DNA from: Chloroflexota bacterium
Lineage (GTDB): Bacteria; Chloroflexota; Dehalococcoidia; Lucifugimonadales; UBA3495
Assembly: GCA_022573285.1 (NCBI GenBank)
Contig: JACZUF010000012.1
Location: forward strand, 1 to 64,000
DNA length: 64,000 nt
Reading direction: 5' to 3'
The notes beneath the pieces are model-generated. The model searched no databases and had not been told where the DNA came from. It worked only from the letters and a program-made list of their open reading frames with translations. Made by a program: the position numbers and the translations under genes. This document shows, one piece after another, positions 251 through 61,051 of the stretch. How positions within the stretch are numbered: the first letter of the stretch is position 1; every line of letters starts with the position of its first letter.

Positions 251-1345
251 ATGGATATCGCAGTGATCGGACTGCCCCAGAGCGGCAAGTCCACGGTTTT
301 CAACGCCTTGACGGCAGGCCATTCCACGTCGACTGGCGCCGGCGGCGCGGGGCCCATGCAGGTCGGCGTGGTCAAAGTCATCGACCCCAGGCTGGCGGTT
401 TTGGACGGCATGTACCACCCCAAGAAGGTGGTGCACCCTGAGATAAAATACTGGGACCTGCCTCCCGTGGACCGGGACTCGGCTTCCGCCAACCAGATAC
501 TGAGCGGCCGCCAGCGGAACATCCTCCAGGGCGCCGATGCGCTGCTGTTGGTGGTACGGGCCTTTGACGACCCCGCCTTGCTCCATCCCATGGGCGGCGT
601 TGACCCCGGCCGCGACGTCAAGGTGATGCTGGAGGAACTGGCCCTGGCCGACCTTGAAGCCTTGGAACGTGCCGAGGCCCGCCTCAGCGACGGTCTTAAG
701 AAGGCCAAGCCGGCGGACCGGCCCGCCTTGGTTCCCCAGTTGGAGACGGTCCAAAAGGTACAGGCCGGTCTCGAAGGGGGCATCCCGGTGAAATCGCAGA
801 CCCTGACTCCGTCGGAGACCGCGGCCTTGGTGGATTTCCAGTTGCTGACCGCCAAACCCGTGATGATTGCGTTCAATACGGGGGAATCTGAGCCGACGCC
901 CACATTGGAAGGGCTGGGCATCTCAAATGAGGTGGCCGGCGGGCTGGGTGAGGTTGGCCTGTGCGCCAAGCTGGAAGAGGACCTGGCCATGATGGAACCC
1001 GGTGAAGCAGAGGAGTTCCGGGAGGCCATGGGCCTGGAGGAAGCGGCCGTGGAGCGGGTCAAGCAGGTGTGCTACAGCACCGTGGGCCTGGTGTCGTTCC
1101 TTACGGTGGGCGAAGACGAGGTCCGGGCCTGGCCGGTCCCCGCGGGCATCGTGGCCCAGATGGCTGCCGGCACGATCCACACCGACTTCACCCGTGGGTT
1201 CATCCGCGCCGAGGTCATCCCCTACGACGACCTAGTCCGCTGCGGCAGCTTGGCCCAGGGCCGCAAAGAGGGGGTCCTTCGTTCCGAGGGTAAGACCTAT
1301 CAGGTCCAAGACGGCGACGTAATCAACTTTCTAATCAACACCTAG
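251..1345 (+). CDS. ychF: YchF/OLA1-type P-loop ATPase
   Basis: This 364-residue protein is full length for YchF, a translation-associated TRAFAC-class NTPase of the Obg family that binds ribosomes and prefers ATP to GTP. The P-loop GLPQSGKST sits at residues 7-15. The usual NKxD base-recognition motif is replaced by FNTGE, in line with the NxxE form known for YchF proteins that favour ATP. The C-terminal 80 or so residues form the TGS-like domain and end in GDVINFLINT. ATG 251 gives the usual N-terminus (MDIAVIGLPQSGKS). The GNAT gene follows after 9 bases on the same strand, probably in the same transcript. Confidence 0.95.
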   Translation: MDIAVIGLPQSGKSTVFNALTAGHSTSTGAGGAGPMQVGVVKVIDPRLAVLDGMYHPKKVVHPEIKYWDLPPVDRDSASANQILSGRQRNILQGADALLLVVRAFDDPALLHPMGGVDPGRDVKVMLEELALADLEALERAEARLSDGLKKAKPADRPALVPQLETVQKVQAGLEGGIPVKSQTLTPSETAALVDFQLLTAKPVMIAFNTGESEPTPTLEGLGISNEVAGGLGEVGLCAKLEEDLAMMEPGEAEEFREAMGLEEAAVERVKQVCYSTVGLVSFLTVGEDEVRAWPVPAGIVAQMAAGTIHTDFTRGFIRAEVIPYDDLVRCGSLAQGRKEGVLRSEGKTYQVQDGDVINFLINT

Positions 1346-1354
1346 CAGACGACA

Positions 1355-1891
1355 ATGAGCGGGCAGGCCGAACTCAACATCAGGACCTTTGTTCCAACCG
1401 ATCTGGCCCAGGTGCGAGAGTTGTTCGCCAGCGGGCTCATGGAGTTCGCTGGCGACATGGAGCGCGAAATCCGCCGCTACGTCGACCATTCCCTGAACGA
1501 CGACCTGGCCGACATCCCGGGCCAATACTTGTCCCATCCCCGGGCCAATTTTTGGGTGGCCGAATCCAGCGGCCCTGCGGTTGGCATTGTGGGAATCGTT
1601 GGCATCCAGCCGAGGGAACTGGAGGAGGAGGCGGAGCTGCGGCGGATGAGCGTTTCATCCTCCGCCCGCCGGCAGGGGATCGGCCGCAGGTTGTTGGAGA
1701 TCACCGAGGGATTCTGCCGGGACAATGGTTACCGGCGGATTTTCTTGTCCTCGGCTGGTATCCTGCAGCCGGCCTTGGCGATGTACCGGAGATTCGGCTA
1801 CACGACCGTGAAAGAGGAGCCCTACGGAGACCCGCCCGCCCGGCCGATAACCATCCATCACTTGGTCAAAGAACTGGACGGGACCGCCTAA
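1355..1891 (+). CDS. GNAT-family N-acetyltransferase
   Basis: The 178 residues form one GNAT fold, predicted to transfer an acetyl group from acetyl-CoA to an unknown amine. The acetyl-CoA pyrophosphate-binding motif RRQGIG is at residues 105-110, preceded by the beta4 strand ELRRMSV. The later part (LAMYRRFGYTTVKEEPYG) is typical of the family's C-terminal half. The start is ATG 1355, 9 bases after ychF. The gene converges on the first solute-binding lipoprotein gene. The last 109 bases are repeated in decayed form at 3927-4036, beside the second lipoprotein gene. The substrate cannot be inferred. Confidence 0.88.
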   Translation: MSGQAELNIRTFVPTDLAQVRELFASGLMEFAGDMEREIRRYVDHSLNDDLADIPGQYLSHPRANFWVAESSGPAVGIVGIVGIQPRELEEEAELRRMSVSSSARRQGIGRRLLEITEGFCRDNGYRRIFLSSAGILQPALAMYRRFGYTTVKEEPYGDPPARPITIHHLVKELDGTA

Positions 1892-1915
1892 AACCTGGGT
1901 TCGGCAACATCGAAA

Positions 1916-1942
1916 AGCCCCCGGCAGATACTGCCGGGGGCT
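1916..1942 (-). terminator. Intrinsic terminator of the first lipoprotein gene
   Basis: A perfect 12-bp stem (AGCCCCCGGCAG with its complement, 3-base loop) is followed on the minus strand by TTTT. It lies 26 bases beyond the lipoprotein stop. It may also slow plus-strand transcription from the GNAT gene, although no T-run follows in that direction. Confidence 0.85.
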
Positions 1943-1968
1943 CATATTACTCGGTTTAGACCGATGGC

Positions 1969-3762
1969 CTACCGATGTTTGACGTACTCGAACCCAGTCG
2001 CGGTCCGGACGTCGCTGTAGTCGGCCGGGTCGAAATCTGGGTCCAGTCGTGGGCCTATGGGCCAGACGCCGTCGTGGACGTATATCGAGGATGCCATGGC
2101 GTTATCCCACATCCAGTTATAAAACTCGAGTTCCCCTGCCTGGATCTTCAACGGGTCAGTCTGCTTCGCCGCCCGGCCGAAGATCTCATCTATGATCGGG
2201 TGGTGTGTCCCGTAGCTATAGGTCGATGTTATCGGGTAGTTGGAGGCCCCGATGAGGGGAGTCAAGCGTACGCCAACGGTGAGGCAGGTGATGCCCTGGT
2301 ATTTCCGGGTGATCAACTCAGGCCGAATGGTCGCATAGGGAACGTTCTGGATCTTGACGTTGATGCCGATGGCTTCCCAGTACTGGGCAAGCGATTGACA
2401 GGTCTCAACCTCGGCGGGCGCCCCCCGGATGGCTGGGGTCAACGTGATGGTGAATCCATTGGGATAACCCGCGTCGGCCAACATCTGCTTGGCCAGTACC
2501 GGGTCGTACTCGTAGACCCAATCTGGGTTGGCTCTCGCTTCGTGGCCCATCCAGTCTCTCAGATACTGGGGCCGCCCGAACCCTAACAGAAGCGTGTCGA
2601 CGATGGTCTGGCGGTCGATGGCGATGTTCATCGCCTTCCGGACCATGACGGCGTCTTTCCATGCCTTAGAGTTTGTGTCCAAATCTGAGGACACCCAAGC
2701 CTGGTTAGGATCGTAGAACTCGTATTCGTTGCCGTCTCTGTCCAGGCCGTAGGTCTGACCGTACCAGTTTATCCCGGCCTGACCGGCGTTGGGTACGCCT
2801 TTGAGCACCGCGCCTTCCACGGCTTCAATCGTGATGATGGAGTCGAAGTCCATGGAGAAGTTGTCCAGATTGCCGGTCTGGAAACCGGCGACCCGGGCCG
2901 ACTCCTCCGGGATGGTCCAGAAGACCAACTCCTCGAAGTAGGGAGTCTGACGCCAGTGGTCTTGCACCGCGCTGAACTTCCAGAACTGGCCGCTGGCATG
3001 TTCCTCTATCTCCCAGGGTCCGGTGGAGGCGATGTCTACGCTCGCATCTTCGATCCCAAGCTCTTCAGACTGCTTCTTGCTGACGATCCAGGTGCTGACG
3101 CCGCCGCCATTGCGCAGGAACTCGAAAACCCGCGCGGACACCCATGGCTCGCCGGTAAAGACCTCAAAGGTGAGGTCATCGAGTATTGTGGTGGAGGCGT
3201 TGAGGTCCGCGTTCCCGTCGAAGCCGAAATACTGTCCAATGAACCCGGCGCGGGCGAGAAGGGCGCCTTCGTACCACTGTTCGTAGGAATAGACGACGTC
3301 CTCCGTAGTCAGCTCCCCATAACCCTTGTGGAACTGGATGCCAGGTTGGATATGCCAGGTCCAGGTCAGGAAGTCGTCGGATATGTCCCAAGATTCGGCT
3401 ACCATGGGGTTGGGCAAGAGATCCTCTCTAATGGTTACCAGGCCCTCGCCGATCGAACTGCTGAGGAATTGGATCCTGGGGCTCGAGGCCTGGCTCGGAT
3501 GACCCTGGAAGATGCCGGTCTCCCGCTGACCGATGTTGATGGTGCCTGACGGCGCAACCATTGCGGGCGCAGCGGTTGCTTGAGGCATTGCCGTGGGCGC
3601 CGCAGCCGCAGTTGCTTGAGGCCTTGCCGTGGGCGCAGCACTGCTAGCCCGTGGAGTCGCCGTTGCCGACGAACCGCAGGCGAACAGCAGAGCTACGAAT
3701 AAAAGAATGATTGCCTTGGGCCAATGCCTGAATAACTGGGACCTTGATATTGACTTTGGCAC
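1969..3762 (-). CDS. ABC transporter solute-binding lipoprotein, family 5 (copy 1)
   Basis: A 597-residue SBP_bac_5-type binding protein, the family that captures peptides, nickel or other small solutes for ABC importers. The N-terminus has a basic region, a hydrophobic core and a lipobox LLFAC with the lipidated Cys at 29, so the protein should be anchored outside the membrane. A Ala/Thr/Pro-rich linker to about residue 70 leads into the binding domain. Family signatures include WTWHIQPGIQFHKGYG near the first third and KQMLADAGYPNGF later. No permease or ATPase gene is adjacent, so the importer partner is unknown. The gene is a close paralogue of 4140-5960, and the duplication includes the promoter. 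A terminator follows at 1916-1942. Confidence 0.93.
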   Translation of the reverse strand: MPKSISRSQLFRHWPKAIILLFVALLFACGSSATATPRASSAAPTARPQATAAAAPTAMPQATAAPAMVAPSGTINIGQRETGIFQGHPSQASSPRIQFLSSSIGEGLVTIREDLLPNPMVAESWDISDDFLTWTWHIQPGIQFHKGYGELTTEDVVYSYEQWYEGALLARAGFIGQYFGFDGNADLNASTTILDDLTFEVFTGEPWVSARVFEFLRNGGGVSTWIVSKKQSEELGIEDASVDIASTGPWEIEEHASGQFWKFSAVQDHWRQTPYFEELVFWTIPEESARVAGFQTGNLDNFSMDFDSIITIEAVEGAVLKGVPNAGQAGINWYGQTYGLDRDGNEYEFYDPNQAWVSSDLDTNSKAWKDAVMVRKAMNIAIDRQTIVDTLLLGFGRPQYLRDWMGHEARANPDWVYEYDPVLAKQMLADAGYPNGFTITLTPAIRGAPAEVETCQSLAQYWEAIGINVKIQNVPYATIRPELITRKYQGITCLTVGVRLTPLIGASNYPITSTYSYGTHHPIIDEIFGRAAKQTDPLKIQAGELEFYNWMWDNAMASSIYVHDGVWPIGPRLDPDFDPADYSDVRTATGFEYVKHR

Positions 3763-3859
3763 GGTTCCATCTCCCGTTCTACGTTTTACGAATAAGGACG
3801 TTACAAATTCGAAATACCGCTATTTATGCAAAGACAGACCACGATGTTTGACATTGAAT

Positions 3860-3888
3860 TTTATATGTCACCGCAGGTAGCTTGTCAA
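3860..3888 (-). promoter_or_regulatory. Sigma70-type promoter of lipoprotein gene copy 1
   Basis: Reading the minus strand, TTGACA (3888-3883) and TATAAA (3865-3860) are 17 bases apart, a near-consensus promoter. The same boxes with the same spacing and similar flanks occur upstream of copy 2. The predicted start near 3853 would give a leader of about 90 bases, which is also conserved between the copies. Confidence 0.8.
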
Positions 3889-3926
3889 TCCGCCTACGAT
3901 GATAATGATGAGTGGGTAACATTATG

Positions 3927-4036
3927 GTACCGGAGGTTCGACGACGCGGCCGTGAAAGAGGACCCGTACGGAGACCCGCACCACCCGGCCGATAACCGTC
4001 CATCGCCTGGTCAAAGAGCTTCGCGGGGCCGCCTGG
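3927..4036 (+). pseudogene. Decayed duplicate of the GNAT acetyltransferase 3' end
   Basis: This stretch aligns with 1783-1891, the last 109 bases of the GNAT gene, over its whole length with scattered substitutions. A one-base insertion in the stretch matching the coding for DPPARP shifts the frame, and the TAA stop has become TGG. There is no start and no upstream part of the gene. It sits between the two lipoprotein genes exactly where the real GNAT tail sits relative to copy 1, so it marks the edge of the segmental duplication. Confidence 0.85.
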
Positions 4037-4057
4037 CACGGGCTACAGCAACCGAAA

Positions 4058-4091
4058 AAGAGAGCCCCGGCATTAATGCCGGGGCTCTCTT
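4058..4091 (-). terminator. Intrinsic terminator of the second lipoprotein gene
   Basis: A 17-bp uninterrupted palindrome centred at 4074/4075 with a GCCCCGGC core is followed on the minus strand by five T residues. It lies 48 bases past the copy 2 stop and corresponds in position to the copy 1 terminator. Confidence 0.88.
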
Positions 4092-4139
4092 GGTGATCTT
4101 ATCAGGGCCCCTGTGCCCCAGGTCTGATCTGATTGCTGC

Positions 4140-5960
4140 CTAACGGTGCTTGATGTACTCAAATCCCGAAGGTGTCCTGACCTCGCTGAATCCGTACGGA
4201 GTCCATTCCGGGTCCAATGCGGGGCCGATCGGCCAGAGGCCGTCGAAGGCGTAGAGGGCGAACGCCATCACGTTGTCGTACATCCAACCGTAGATCTCCT
4301 TCGTTTGCGCCTCGAGTTTTACCGGGTCTACCTGTAACAGAGCGGCGCTGATGTGCTCCTCCATCCACGGGTGCTCGGTCCCGTAGCTGAAGGTGGACTG
4401 CTTGACGTAGTTGGAAGCCCCGATGATGGGGTTCAACCGTGCGCCGACGGTGTGACAGGTGACGCCCTGGTACTGCCGGGTGATCAACGAAGGCCGGATG
4501 GTAGCGTAAGGGACGTTTTGTATCTTCACGCTGATGCCGATGTCTTCCCAGTACTGAGCAACCGCTTCACAGGCCTCGACCTCGGCGGGCGCCCCCCGGA
4601 TGGCCGGAGTCAACGTGATCGTGAATCCGTTGGGATAGCCGGCTTCAACCAGCAATTGTTTGGCCGCCTCCGGATCGTAGAGGAACACCCAGCGGGGATC
4701 GGCCTTGGCTTCGTGGCCCATCCAATCGCGCATATACAGGACATTCCCGAAACCGGACAGCAGCGTATCGACGATGGTCTGGCGGTCGATGGCGATGGAC
4801 ATAGCCCGCTTGACCTTCACGGCATTGGCCCATTCCACTGAATCAGGGTCTTCGTCGCAGGAGACCCAGGCGTTACTACAGTCTAGGGCCTCGTAGGGAT
4901 TGCCATCTTTATCGGTCCCGTAGGTCTGGCCATAGATGTTCAGGCCGGCCTGTCCGGCGTTTGCCCAGGCGACAACCTTGGAGCCCGGGACGGCATCCAC
5001 AGTGGGGAGGGTGTCGAAGGACATCTGGAAGGTATCCAGGTTGCCGGTCTGGAATCCAGCGACCCGGGCAGACTCTTCAGGAATGGTCCATAGTACAAAC
5101 TCCTCGAAGAAGGGGGTCTGCCGCCAGTGGTCCTGGACCGCCTTGAACCTCCAGAACTCGCCGCTGGAGAAATCATCGATCTCCCAAGGGCCGGTCATGG
5201 CGATGTCCTTGCTGGCCACTTCGGGGGTCAATTCTTCGGACTGTTTCTTGCTTACGATCGAAGTGCTGAGACCTCCCAGGCCGCGCATGAATTCGAACGC
5301 CCGCGCCGGGATCCAGGGTTCGCCGGTGTTTACTTCGACGGTGAAATCATCGATGACCGTCTGTGAGCCGCCCTTATTGCCAACCCAGTAGTCGCCGATA
5401 ATGCCGGCCCTGGCGTTGAGAGCGCCATCGTGATACTCCTTGAAGGAGTATAGGACGTCATCAATCGTCAATAATCCATAACCCTTGTGGAACTCGACGT
5501 CGTCCCGGATCTTCCAGGTCCAAACCAAGAAGTCGTCGGATATGCTCCAAGAGACAGCCAAGAACGGGGCGGGGGAAAAGTCCTCCATGATCGTGACCAT
5601 CGATTCACCCGCGGTGAGGGCCATGTACTGGTAACGTGGGCTGGAGATGAACCTTGGATGCCCCTCGAAAACGCCGGTTTCCTTTACACCATAGTTAATA
5701 GTGCCGGAGAACTTTACCGCGGGGGCCGGCGCTTTTGTGGCCTGAACCGCCGCGGTGGGTATGGGTGTGGGAGTGACTCCTCCGGCCACTGATGGAACTG
5801 ACGTAGGCCGCGGCACCGAAGTCGCCAAAGGCCCGCTGCTACTGGACACCGGAGTCGCCGTCGCCGAAGACCCACAGGCGAACAACAGGGCAACGAATAG
5901 CAGAACGACCGCCTTGGGCAGATGCCTGATTATCTGTGACCTTGATCTTGACTCTGGCAC
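4140..5960 (-). CDS. ABC transporter solute-binding lipoprotein, family 5 (copy 2)
   Basis: A 606-residue paralogue of the 1969-3762 product with the same layout: signal peptide with lipobox LLFAC (Cys 29), a Ser/Thr/Pro/Val-rich linker to about residue 80, then the SBP_bac_5 domain. Long blocks match copy 1, for example GFTITLTPAIRGAPAEVE and KIQNVPYATIRP, while other regions have diverged. That pattern suggests related but different ligands. The protein should be lipid-anchored on the outer face of the membrane and deliver solute to a permease encoded elsewhere. It has its own promoter and terminator, so the two copies are separate transcription units. The ligand is not predictable from sequence. 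Confidence 0.93.
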   Translation of the reverse strand: MPESRSRSQIIRHLPKAVVLLFVALLFACGSSATATPVSSSSGPLATSVPRPTSVPSVAGGVTPTPIPTAAVQATKAPAPAVKFSGTINYGVKETGVFEGHPRFISSPRYQYMALTAGESMVTIMEDFSPAPFLAVSWSISDDFLVWTWKIRDDVEFHKGYGLLTIDDVLYSFKEYHDGALNARAGIIGDYWVGNKGGSQTVIDDFTVEVNTGEPWIPARAFEFMRGLGGLSTSIVSKKQSEELTPEVASKDIAMTGPWEIDDFSSGEFWRFKAVQDHWRQTPFFEEFVLWTIPEESARVAGFQTGNLDTFQMSFDTLPTVDAVPGSKVVAWANAGQAGLNIYGQTYGTDKDGNPYEALDCSNAWVSCDEDPDSVEWANAVKVKRAMSIAIDRQTIVDTLLSGFGNVLYMRDWMGHEAKADPRWVFLYDPEAAKQLLVEAGYPNGFTITLTPAIRGAPAEVEACEAVAQYWEDIGISVKIQNVPYATIRPSLITRQYQGVTCHTVGARLNPIIGASNYVKQSTFSYGTEHPWMEEHISAALLQVDPVKLEAQTKEIYGWMYDNVMAFALYAFDGLWPIGPALDPEWTPYGFSEVRTPSGFEYIKHR

Positions 5961-6055
5961 GCTTTCTTCTCCCTTCCTACGTTTTACGAATAAGGACGTA
6001 TCTATTTCGAAATATCGCTTTATTCAAAGACACACGACTACATTTTACCTTGATG

Positions 6056-6084
6056 TTTATATGTCACCGTATCTAGCTTGTCAA
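6056..6084 (-). promoter_or_regulatory. Sigma70-type promoter of lipoprotein gene copy 2
   Basis: On the minus strand TTGACA (6084-6079), a 17-base spacer and TATAAA (6061-6056) repeat the arrangement seen at copy 1. Parts of the spacer (AGCTA and GGTGACA) and of the roughly 90-base leader are also shared, including an ACGTTTTACGAATAAGGACG block (plus-strand reading). Confidence 0.8.
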
Positions 6085-6207
6085 TACGACTTCAATGATA
6101 ATCATGAGCGTTTAAAATTATGATGACAGATAATATAGCTAGGGTAGTTCCCAGTGAAAACCCGATTATGGGGCTGATTTACCGGGGATGGCGGAGGGCC
6201 GCCGGGC

Positions 6208-6606
6208 CTAGAGAGGCTTGGCGAAGGACAGCTCGTGGGAATCGGGGTCGTCGATGTGGAAATAACGCTCGCCCCAAGAAGCGTCGGCCGGCTCGGTTGA
6301 TGGGGTGAGGCCCGCTTGGACCAGGCTCCGGTACAGGGCGTCGACGTCGTCAACGTGGAATATTAAACGCCCCCACCTTGTCTGGCGTCCCCACCTTGTC
6401 TGGGTGTCCTGGGGACCCGTGGCGCCCGGTGGGGCCAAAGTGAGGTTCAGAAAGCAGTCTCCCACCTTGAAGCTAGTGAATGAAGCCGAGCCGCCCCCAT
6501 AGAGGATCTCCAGGCCGACCTTGTCGCGGTAGAAGTCGACGGACCGGGCCATGTCGGCCACGGTCAGGGTTATGGCGCTGATGGACCGAACGTTCAACTT
6601 GGCCAT
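6208..6606 (-). CDS. VOC-superfamily (glyoxalase/bleomycin-resistance fold) protein
   Basis: A 132-residue protein with two vicinal-oxygen-chelate modules. The first (SAITLTVADMARSVDFYRDKVGL) starts with beta-alpha elements, and the second ends with WGERYFHIDDPDSHELSFAKPL, where Glu near the end is the usual metal ligand. Such proteins are metal-dependent isomerases, dioxygenases or resistance proteins; the substrate is unknown. Between the modules an 18-base tandem duplication (6371-6403) gives the repeat TRWGRQTRWGR. It keeps the frame but probably lengthens a loop. The gene stands alone, with the lipoprotein promoter upstream on one side and the SCO1664-like gene on the other. Confidence 0.85.
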   Translation of the reverse strand: MAKLNVRSISAITLTVADMARSVDFYRDKVGLEILYGGGSASFTSFKVGDCFLNLTLAPPGATGPQDTQTRWGRQTRWGRLIFHVDDVDALYRSLVQAGLTPSTEPADASWGERYFHIDDPDSHELSFAKPL

Positions 6607-6655: not shown

Positions 6656-7387
6656 CTATCCGCGGCGGCGGTTACGCCCGGGCAGGCCCGGAAACACCCG
6701 CTCTTCCAAGACCCAGTCCAGGCGGTGTTTGAGGGCGTCCACCTCTTCCTGGGGCAGGAGAGTCACCAACTCCTTCAGCAGGCTGGGCAGGGAGTCGGCG
6801 GGAGAGTCCAATTGCTCCCGGAGTTTGGTCAGCGATTTCAGTAAGTGCTGCGGGATCGGTTCGCTGCTAAAGTCCCAGATCACCGTGCGGACCTTCATGT
6901 CCGAATGGAAGGTCAGTCCGTGGTCGATACTCCAGATCTTGCCGCCGTTCCCCATCAGAAGATGATTGGCCTTGCGGTCGGTGCTGTTGGCCACCAGATC
7001 AAAGCAGGCGATGACCCGTAGCTGGTCGGCGCACCCTTCTTCCAGGGTGTAGTAATTCTGTTTTGGGTCGTGCTCGACGAACTGTTGCACCGAGCCGATC
7101 CCATAGGGGCCATCCCGGATGGTGGTGAAGGGGACGATGTCCCAACCCAATACCTCGCTCAGCAGATAGGCGGCGTACTCGCGTATATAGAGGGTGCCGC
7201 TGGGGAAGTCCCAAAGAGGGGCCTCTCCGTCCCGGGGTTTATAGATGGCCAGGCTCTCGTTGCCTTTCAGCTCAATATTGACCACAAAGGTGTAGTTGGA
7301 ACCCAGGGGGGCCAACTGATAGGAGACTATTTCGCCGTGGCGAATTATTTCGGTCGTCGTCGGCTCGTTAGTCAATTCGGCAGTCAA
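6656..7387 (-). CDS. SCO1664-family protein (PI3/4-kinase-like fold)
   Basis: The protein matches the SCO1664 family, distantly related to phosphatidylinositol 3/4-kinases and known mainly from Actinobacteria. Hallmarks are GEIVSYQLAPLGSNYTF, the lysine segment AIYKPRDGEAPLWDFPSGTL, REYAAYLLSEVLGWDIVP, and a putative catalytic/metal region FDLVANSTDRKANHLL followed by IWSIDHGLTF. The biochemical function is unproven. The open frame runs up to 7576 inside the DUF3090 gene with no ATG before the conserved part. I chose TTG 7387, just after the DUF3090 stop, giving 243 residues. The next TTG 12 bases on is an alternative. Its place directly after DUF3090 copies the actinobacterial gene order. 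Confidence 0.82.
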   Translation of the reverse strand: MTAELTNEPTTTEIIRHGEIVSYQLAPLGSNYTFVVNIELKGNESLAIYKPRDGEAPLWDFPSGTLYIREYAAYLLSEVLGWDIVPFTTIRDGPYGIGSVQQFVEHDPKQNYYTLEEGCADQLRVIACFDLVANSTDRKANHLLMGNGGKIWSIDHGLTFHSDMKVRTVIWDFSSEPIPQHLLKSLTKLREQLDSPADSLPSLLKELVTLLPQEEVDALKHRLDWVLEERVFPGLPGRNRRRG

Positions 7388-7419
7388 AAGGTCATTTCCG
7401 TCGGCTCCGGCATCCCAGT

Positions 7420-7992
7420 CTAGCCGGCCTCCAAGACGGTGTGCCCATTGGCCCTGGGACACGCGTGACCTTCCGGGTTTATGGGTTGTCCGCATAGGAA
7501 ACAAGTCGGCCTGCCGGCGGCGCAGATCTTTAACGCTTCCTCTCCCAGGACGCCCGCTTGAGCGGTGGTGATCCAAAAGCCCACCGATTCGGCATCGCCG
7601 GGTTCATCGCTCCGCGGGCTTTCGCCTTCTTCCTGATCCTCTGCCCCGCGCTCATGGGCCTGAAGGTAGAAGGCGTTGCTGCCCTGATCGTGGCTGAGCA
7701 GCATCTGACCGGCCTTGAAATCGACGGTCAATTCGCCCCCGGACCAAGTCCCTTCCCGGAGATCGCTTTCCTTGTCCCGGTCCTCCTGGGAAAGGCGGCC
7801 CACCATGTCTTTTAGGTAGACGCCCAATTGGAAGAGTTGTTCCTTCTCCATCCAGAGGGAACAGTAGGCCGCGCCCGAATGGACGTCCAAGCGGAACGTC
7901 CGGTGGCCGGGCTCTCCAAAGGTCATCGCCTCGATGCTGGAAACTGCGCCCAGGGGATATTTAACCTTGTTCGGCTCCATAATCGTTATCAT
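7420..7992 (-). CDS. DUF3090-family protein
   Basis: This 190-residue protein fits DUF3090. It has the early GEPGHRTFRLDVHSG...SLWMEKEQLFQLGVYL segment. The C-terminus carries a zinc-ribbon-like FLCGQPINPEGHACPRANGH, whose CxxC and later Cys/His could bind a metal. DUF3090 genes commonly sit next to SCO1664-type genes in Actinobacteria, and the same pair occurs here; the function is unknown. The start could be ATG 7992 or the in-frame ATG 7980. An acidic low-complexity insert (GAEDQEEGESPRSDEPGDAE) lies in the middle. The third gene of the actinobacterial cluster, a histidine phosphatase, is not present next to it. Confidence 0.85.
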   Translation of the reverse strand: MITIMEPNKVKYPLGAVSSIEAMTFGEPGHRTFRLDVHSGAAYCSLWMEKEQLFQLGVYLKDMVGRLSQEDRDKESDLREGTWSGGELTVDFKAGQMLLSHDQGSNAFYLQAHERGAEDQEEGESPRSDEPGDAESVGFWITTAQAGVLGEEALKICAAGRPTCFLCGQPINPEGHACPRANGHTVLEAG

Positions 7993-57790: not shown

Positions 57791-57883
57791 TGTCATTCTG
57801 AGGCGGAAGCCGAAGAATCTCTTTTTGCGGTGAAGCCCCGTTCCACCATAGCAACGAGACCCTTCGCTTCACTCAAGGTGACA
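57791..57883. repeat. Dispersed repeat with inverted ends (TGTCATTCTGAG family)
   Basis: About 93 bases: TGTCATTCTGAG at one end and CTCAAGGTGACA at the other (9 of 12 complementary). GAAGAATCTCTTTTTGCGG and GAGACCCTTCGCTTCACTC lie inside. A close relative with a 30-base insert is at 60866-60983 and a degraded one at 50027-50120. Confidence 0.65.
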
Positions 57884-57935
57884 GAATTTCGGTCTTTGCC
57901 GCCGGGAGGACCCGCCGTCGGCAGGAGCATGGCCC

Positions 57936-60865: not shown

Positions 60866-60983
60866 TGTCATTCAGAGGAGCGCTCCCGACGTCCCGATCG
60901 GTATCGGGAGGAAAGAATCTCTTTTTGCGGTGAAGCCTTGTCCCATCCAAGCAAAGAGACCCTTCGCTTCACTCAGGGTGACA
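60866..60983. repeat. Dispersed repeat with insert (TGTCATTCTGAG family)
   Basis: Ends TGTCATTCAGAG and CTCAGGGTGACA frame the same interior as at 57791-57883 (AAAGAATCTCTTTTTGCGG; GAGACCCTTCGCTTCACTC). After the left end an extra segment with GACGTCCCGATCGGTATCGGG appears, the same module as in the 33588-33650 repeat. It lies between two convergent genes. Confidence 0.65.
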
Positions 60984-61051
60984 TTATTACTGGGTGGACG
61001 AGGATAGGTCGGGTAAAGTTGCCGCCACGGTTGGTCTAATATGGGACCCAG

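Follow-up and report, generated by a model that had tools for sequence, protein, structure and literature searches.

A probable birth-and-death array of family-5 solute-binding lipoprotein genes with flank-gene duplication scars in a marine Chloroflexota genus

Here we report a comparative analysis of two neighbouring solute-binding lipoprotein genes in a Chloroflexota bacterium, which in our assessment (probability roughly 0.8) belong to a birth-and-death array, in which orphan family-5 lipoprotein genes lying between a GNAT acetyltransferase gene and a glyoxalase gene underwent tandem duplication followed by exchange or deletion between copies. The array shows the features by which birth-and-death evolution is recognized, namely variable copy number, orthologues across species, and decayed copies. 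An earlier note on this DNA had proposed a comparison with related genomes for single-copy versions; within this SAR202-like genus the GNAT-glyoxalase interval carries 2-6 tandem copies, and at 13 of 15 more distant loci, from other genera of the family, the glyoxalase gene follows closely after the GNAT gene without any binding-protein gene. The locus is a clear case of such an array. Its scars, derived from flanking genes, serve as datable markers of duplication events, and they reveal that tandem duplicates of simple appearance can combine old domains with new control regions, a caution for anyone who infers new function from the divergence of paralogues. It is also a case in which an array of uptake proteins has been growing at one fixed position, in a marine lineage that is abundant, has few cultivated members, and is known for the expansion of paralogous families.

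The analyzed window covers the initial 64 kb of a contig of 66 kb in a draft metagenome bin (81 contigs, 5% contamination), whose genome is labelled G000 and whose two array genes, copy 1 and copy 2, are labelled G000_1 and G000_2. The same locus was taken from congeneric genomes, whose deposits are labelled as SAR202 or Dehalococcoidia bacteria, and every compared genome is a draft metagenome assembly. The left flank consists of a YchF-type GTPase gene (251-1345, plus strand) and the intact GNAT gene (1355-1891, plus strand; Pfam PF00583, 55.7 bits), whose orthologue adjoins YchF in 8 of the 9 same-genus genomes having the locus; in G007 no GNAT gene lies between YchF and the array (locus L055, 1698-1834). 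Copy 1 (1969-3762, minus strand) and copy 2 (4140-5960, minus strand) encode proteins of 597 and 606 aa, respectively, and the array is closed on the right by a glyoxalase-family gene (6208-6606, minus strand; PF00903, 62.5 bits). In the array of G003 (locus L054), two binding-protein copies (2373-3118 and 5402-5740) have decayed and contain internal stops. Beyond the array, the window has an SCO1664-family gene (6656-7576), the first 60 codons of which lie in a separate frame or contain stops in several relatives.

The spacer between the two lipoprotein genes carries a copy of the end of the GNAT gene. By repeat search, end-to-end alignment, and comparison of tails, this scar (3927-4036, plus strand) was traced to the GNAT tail at 1783-1891 (plus strand), with which it aligns in two segments: 1783-1835 corresponds to 3927-3979 (87% identical), and, past an inserted base at 3980, 1836-1889 corresponds to 3981-4034 (83% identical). 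These results bear out the 110-base, frameshifted copy of the GNAT end that had been noted at the 3' side of copy 2. Over the coding tail, 88 of 106 aligned bases are identical (83%). Judged by its sequence, the scar is an unconstrained relic, because the differences are evenly spread over the codon positions (27/35, 30/35, and 31/36 identical) and the stop codon is lost, the TAA of GNAT being TGG in the scar. A tblastn search with the GNAT protein as query recovered the fragment (E=1e-5), and a blastn comparison of the whole spacer with the GNAT locus gave 3e-28. A GC-rich, terminator-like hairpin, read in the sequence and assigned to no strand, comes after the GNAT end in both units, at 1917-1941 in the interval between GNAT and copy 1 and at 4061-4090, where it was copied along with the GNAT tail; the two align with each other. 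By identity the scar is nearest to the GNAT gene of its own genome (83%, versus at most 75%), closer than any orthologue, although a GNAT-tail tree including the scar, based on a stretch too short to resolve, gave a sister relation to its own GNAT neither support nor rejection (AU p=0.25).

The similarity extends well beyond the scar, as window self-alignment matched 1783-3926 with 3927-6122 collinearly from end to end, in abutting units, the GNAT fragment and the upstream regions extending together with the lipoprotein genes. The DNA upstream of copy 1 (3763-3926, minus strand; -35 box TTGACA at 3883-3888 and -10 box TATAAA at 3860-3865, spaced by 17 bases) and that upstream of copy 2 (5961-6122, minus strand; -35 box at 6079-6084, -10 box at 6056-6061) are identical at 130 of 162 positions (80%). 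Orthologous upstream regions in other species have only 40-49% identity, so constraint does not explain the 80% in the window, and the likeness of these regions, already remarked in the earlier note, reflects recent shared descent. A promoter of the TTGACA/TATAAA type occurs in 23 of 25 array copies. The upstream likeness ends at 6122, which pairs with 3926, the final base 5' of the scar; therefore the units abut exactly. The previously proposed extent of 1782-6090 captured the duplication region and fell about 30 bases short at its end, for which 6122 is the better position. At the duplication junction (3926/3927, located by end-to-end alignment, no strand), the upstream region of copy 1 is joined to the GNAT tail, and at most about 3 bases (ATG) are shared there.

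Exact collinearity of abutting units with one junction is what would be expected from the one-step tandem duplication of a 2.2-kb unit that the earlier note proposed, comprising the GNAT tail, the lipoprotein gene, and its promoter, with the binding domains diverging quickly thereafter. The upstream regions agree with this, the window pair being sisters (99/97) in a tree of the 5' region (promoter plus signal-peptide DNA). A pair made in a single step should also consist of mutual closest relatives of the same age as the scar, but the gene bodies are neither. In protein trees, copy 1 is sister to G003_4 with support of 100/99, and copy 2 groups with G002_1 and G003_2 (99/97 in the tree with outgroups; 85/78 for the mature part alone, where a wider clade supported at 100/99 contains this group along with a G007 gene); the gene order in the window is swapped relative to G003, and a species tree from three flanking proteins was poorly resolved. 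Forcing the window bodies together cost 304 log-likelihood units (AU p=2e-58). The trees thus identify the two window genes as old paralogues with separate orthologues elsewhere.

Silent sites point in the same direction. At fourfold-degenerate sites the two bodies are identical at 85 of 171 positions (50%; dS about 1.1), far fewer than in the scar (88/106; p=1e-8) or the upstream region (130/162; p=7e-9), while scar and upstream region do not differ from each other (p=0.63), which argues that the scar and the control region are recent and the bodies old, with different histories and ages. Adaptive amino-acid change cannot yield such silent divergence, and dN/dS over the bodies is 0.27 by the NG86 method, a rough value near saturation, so the genes have been under purifying selection on average. 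Positive selection across the whole body is contradicted by the same rough value. With bodies older than the scar and in different clades, the 2.2-kb unit is not the product of a single duplication, the bodies having probably been exchanged afterwards, and we regard the one-step history as highly improbable. What stands of the segmental duplication is a tandem event with one end inside GNAT, at which the lipoprotein genes themselves were not born; the suggested order, new ligand specificity under old regulation, is reversed, since the bodies are old and the shared promoter and signal-peptide region is new.

Parts of the 5' region were also analyzed separately. For the window copies, orthologous groupings of the whole region were rejected (p=0.0007 and 6e-5), and in its noncoding part alone the window pair remained sisters (100/99), with a weak pairing in G008 (73/66). 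The first 50 codons alone strongly supported the G008 pair and rejected a placement of copy 2 with its orthologues (p=0.0008), but gave the window pair neither support nor rejection (p=0.32). In copy 2, the switch from young to old similarity lies at about codons 20-40.

The same architecture recurs in two other species, where the scars come from the opposite flank, with 51 bases of the glyoxalase coding tail in G001 and about 228 bases in G008. Junction scars in three species can thus be traced to the end of the GNAT gene or of the glyoxalase gene. The scars were mapped prior to making the 5' region tree. Good support for a pairing of two genes from one genome was obtained in that tree for G000_1/2, G001_5/6, and G008_2/3 only; a flank-gene scar lies between neighbours in only those 3 of 16 adjacent pairs, for which the chance of coincidence is 1/560. 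In the body tree none of the three pairs are sisters (AU p=2e-58, 2e-7, and 2e-6, respectively), and for their 5' regions the body-type groupings were rejected with p from 0.009 to 2e-12. In each of these species, the two genes flanking the scar have a common promoter and signal-peptide region but not a common mature domain. In the G008 scar (locus L057), one part matches the intact glyoxalase gene almost perfectly and the remainder less closely, which suggests a recent conversion between relic and gene.

Spacers in most species measure about 370-400 bases, a similarity that hints at an ancient GNAT tail in all of them; this was ruled out, as the tail was not found in the spacers of other species, apart from short hairpin-sized matches. 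If the GNAT tail had been part of an ancient duplication, and gene conversion had since homogenized the promoters and preserved the tail, these spacer lengths would be accounted for, as would a possible conversion tract inside the bodies (about 2250-2435, p about 0.01). This history is quite improbable in view of that restricted occurrence, of the close identity of an unconstrained scar to its own GNAT, and of the likeness ending exactly at the junction. An assembly artefact could be suspected in a draft bin of this contamination level and fragmentation, but the collapse or duplication of contigs would leave almost identical copies, whereas the units differ by about 20-50% at silent and noncoding sites and the scar by 17%, and architecture of the same kind occurs in eight other assemblies; an artefact is scarcely credible.

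The birth-and-death history that we favour would begin with a tandem duplication covering an array unit and ending inside the GNAT gene. The copies would then have undergone homologous exchange, or a deletion between them, with one crossover lying within or close to the conserved stretch that encodes the signal peptide (about codons 20-40), a natural site for crossing over. The resulting pair would have old, dissimilar mature domains but a promoter and signal peptide of recent common origin. One duplication and two deletions, the simplest path found, would suffice for the window; in G001 and G008, duplication of the last unit, with an endpoint inside the glyoxalase gene, and then a single deletion joining adjacent copies within the signal-peptide sequence would give the observed state. 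These steps are inferred, and their number and order may have differed. Alternatively, replication may have switched template during a single repair event, leaving the 5' end of one copy for that of a second, continuing into the flanking gene, and then returning. The spacer would then be a mosaic of the array's two outer flanks, and in each of the three species one event could account for the scar, the unaltered bodies, and the common promoter and signal peptide; the near lack of shared bases at the window junction also fits. We nevertheless regard template switching as doubtful, since the window requires three switches and duplication with deletion is the commoner route in arrays. More tentatively, the locus may be a standing site of shuffling, where repeated flank-ending duplications and signal-peptide crossovers recombine mature domains with shared promoter and secretion headers; if so, which we think possible but unlikely, the ligand range would change while expression stays fixed.

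Both window proteins belong to the SBP_bac_5 family (PF00496), with 180.5 bits for copy 1 and 177.8 bits for copy 2 against a gathering cut-off of 32.4. An AlphaFold model of copy 2 (pLDDT 73.6, pTM 0.71) matched DppA, AapF, OppA, and NikA chains in a fold search (E 1e-25 to 1e-31, TM by target up to 0.82), consistent with a predicted family-5 binding-protein fold. In NCBIfam, the cut-offs of the named ligand families Opp4A, DppA, GsiB, and NikA were not reached (best 85.7 bits versus 650), and searches of NCBIfam, PDB sequences, and folds returned the family only, with no ligand found. A lipobox signal peptide (LLFVALLFAC-GSS) can be read in nearly all array copies, LFAC being the lipobox of copy 1, and by its cysteine the array proteins are predicted lipoproteins.

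No permease gene was found on the window's contig. Outside the array, the closest paralogues in the genome (about 50% identical) are on contig C13, where two further tandem family-5 binding-protein genes adjoin an ATPase gene and two permease genes (locus L062). Each array copy would be expressed from a sigma-70-type promoter of its own, and its product would be an anchored lipoprotein that delivers a small ligand to an Opp/Dpp-type permease whose genes lie elsewhere, the C13 permease being the likeliest candidate. By analogy with DppA1-A5 and OppA1-A5, the array proteins may be orphan binding lipoproteins that share a C13-like permease.

In Pseudomonas aeruginosa, the family-5 binding proteins DppA1-DppA5 serve one permease, DppBCDF, with overlapping ligands (PMC4206461); their function was shown by experiment, whereas that of the array is inferred only, and the window proteins score far below the DppA cut-off. 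The tandem peptide-binding proteins OppA1-OppA3 of Borrelia burgdorferi, which together with OppA4/5 share permeases, resemble the array in being tandem genes of duplication origin with a promoter per copy (PMC5736914). The Borrelia genes, however, are in the opp locus, whereas the array lies away from any permease gene and has more copy-number variation as well as flank-gene scars in its spacers. The two SAR202 papers searched, PMC6946804 among them, mention no binding-protein array; the expansions of enolase, FMNO, and dioxygenase families described there (PMC6946804) share the lineage and the theme of paralogue expansion, but are ancient families of catabolic enzymes, unlike the binding-protein array. 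A binding protein from another genus (G023, locus L048) branches within the array clade although it lies away from the GNAT/glyoxalase site, possibly by transfer. Elsewhere in the window, a 76-base repeat occurs in two copies (57813-57888 and 60913-60988) that are 87% identical.
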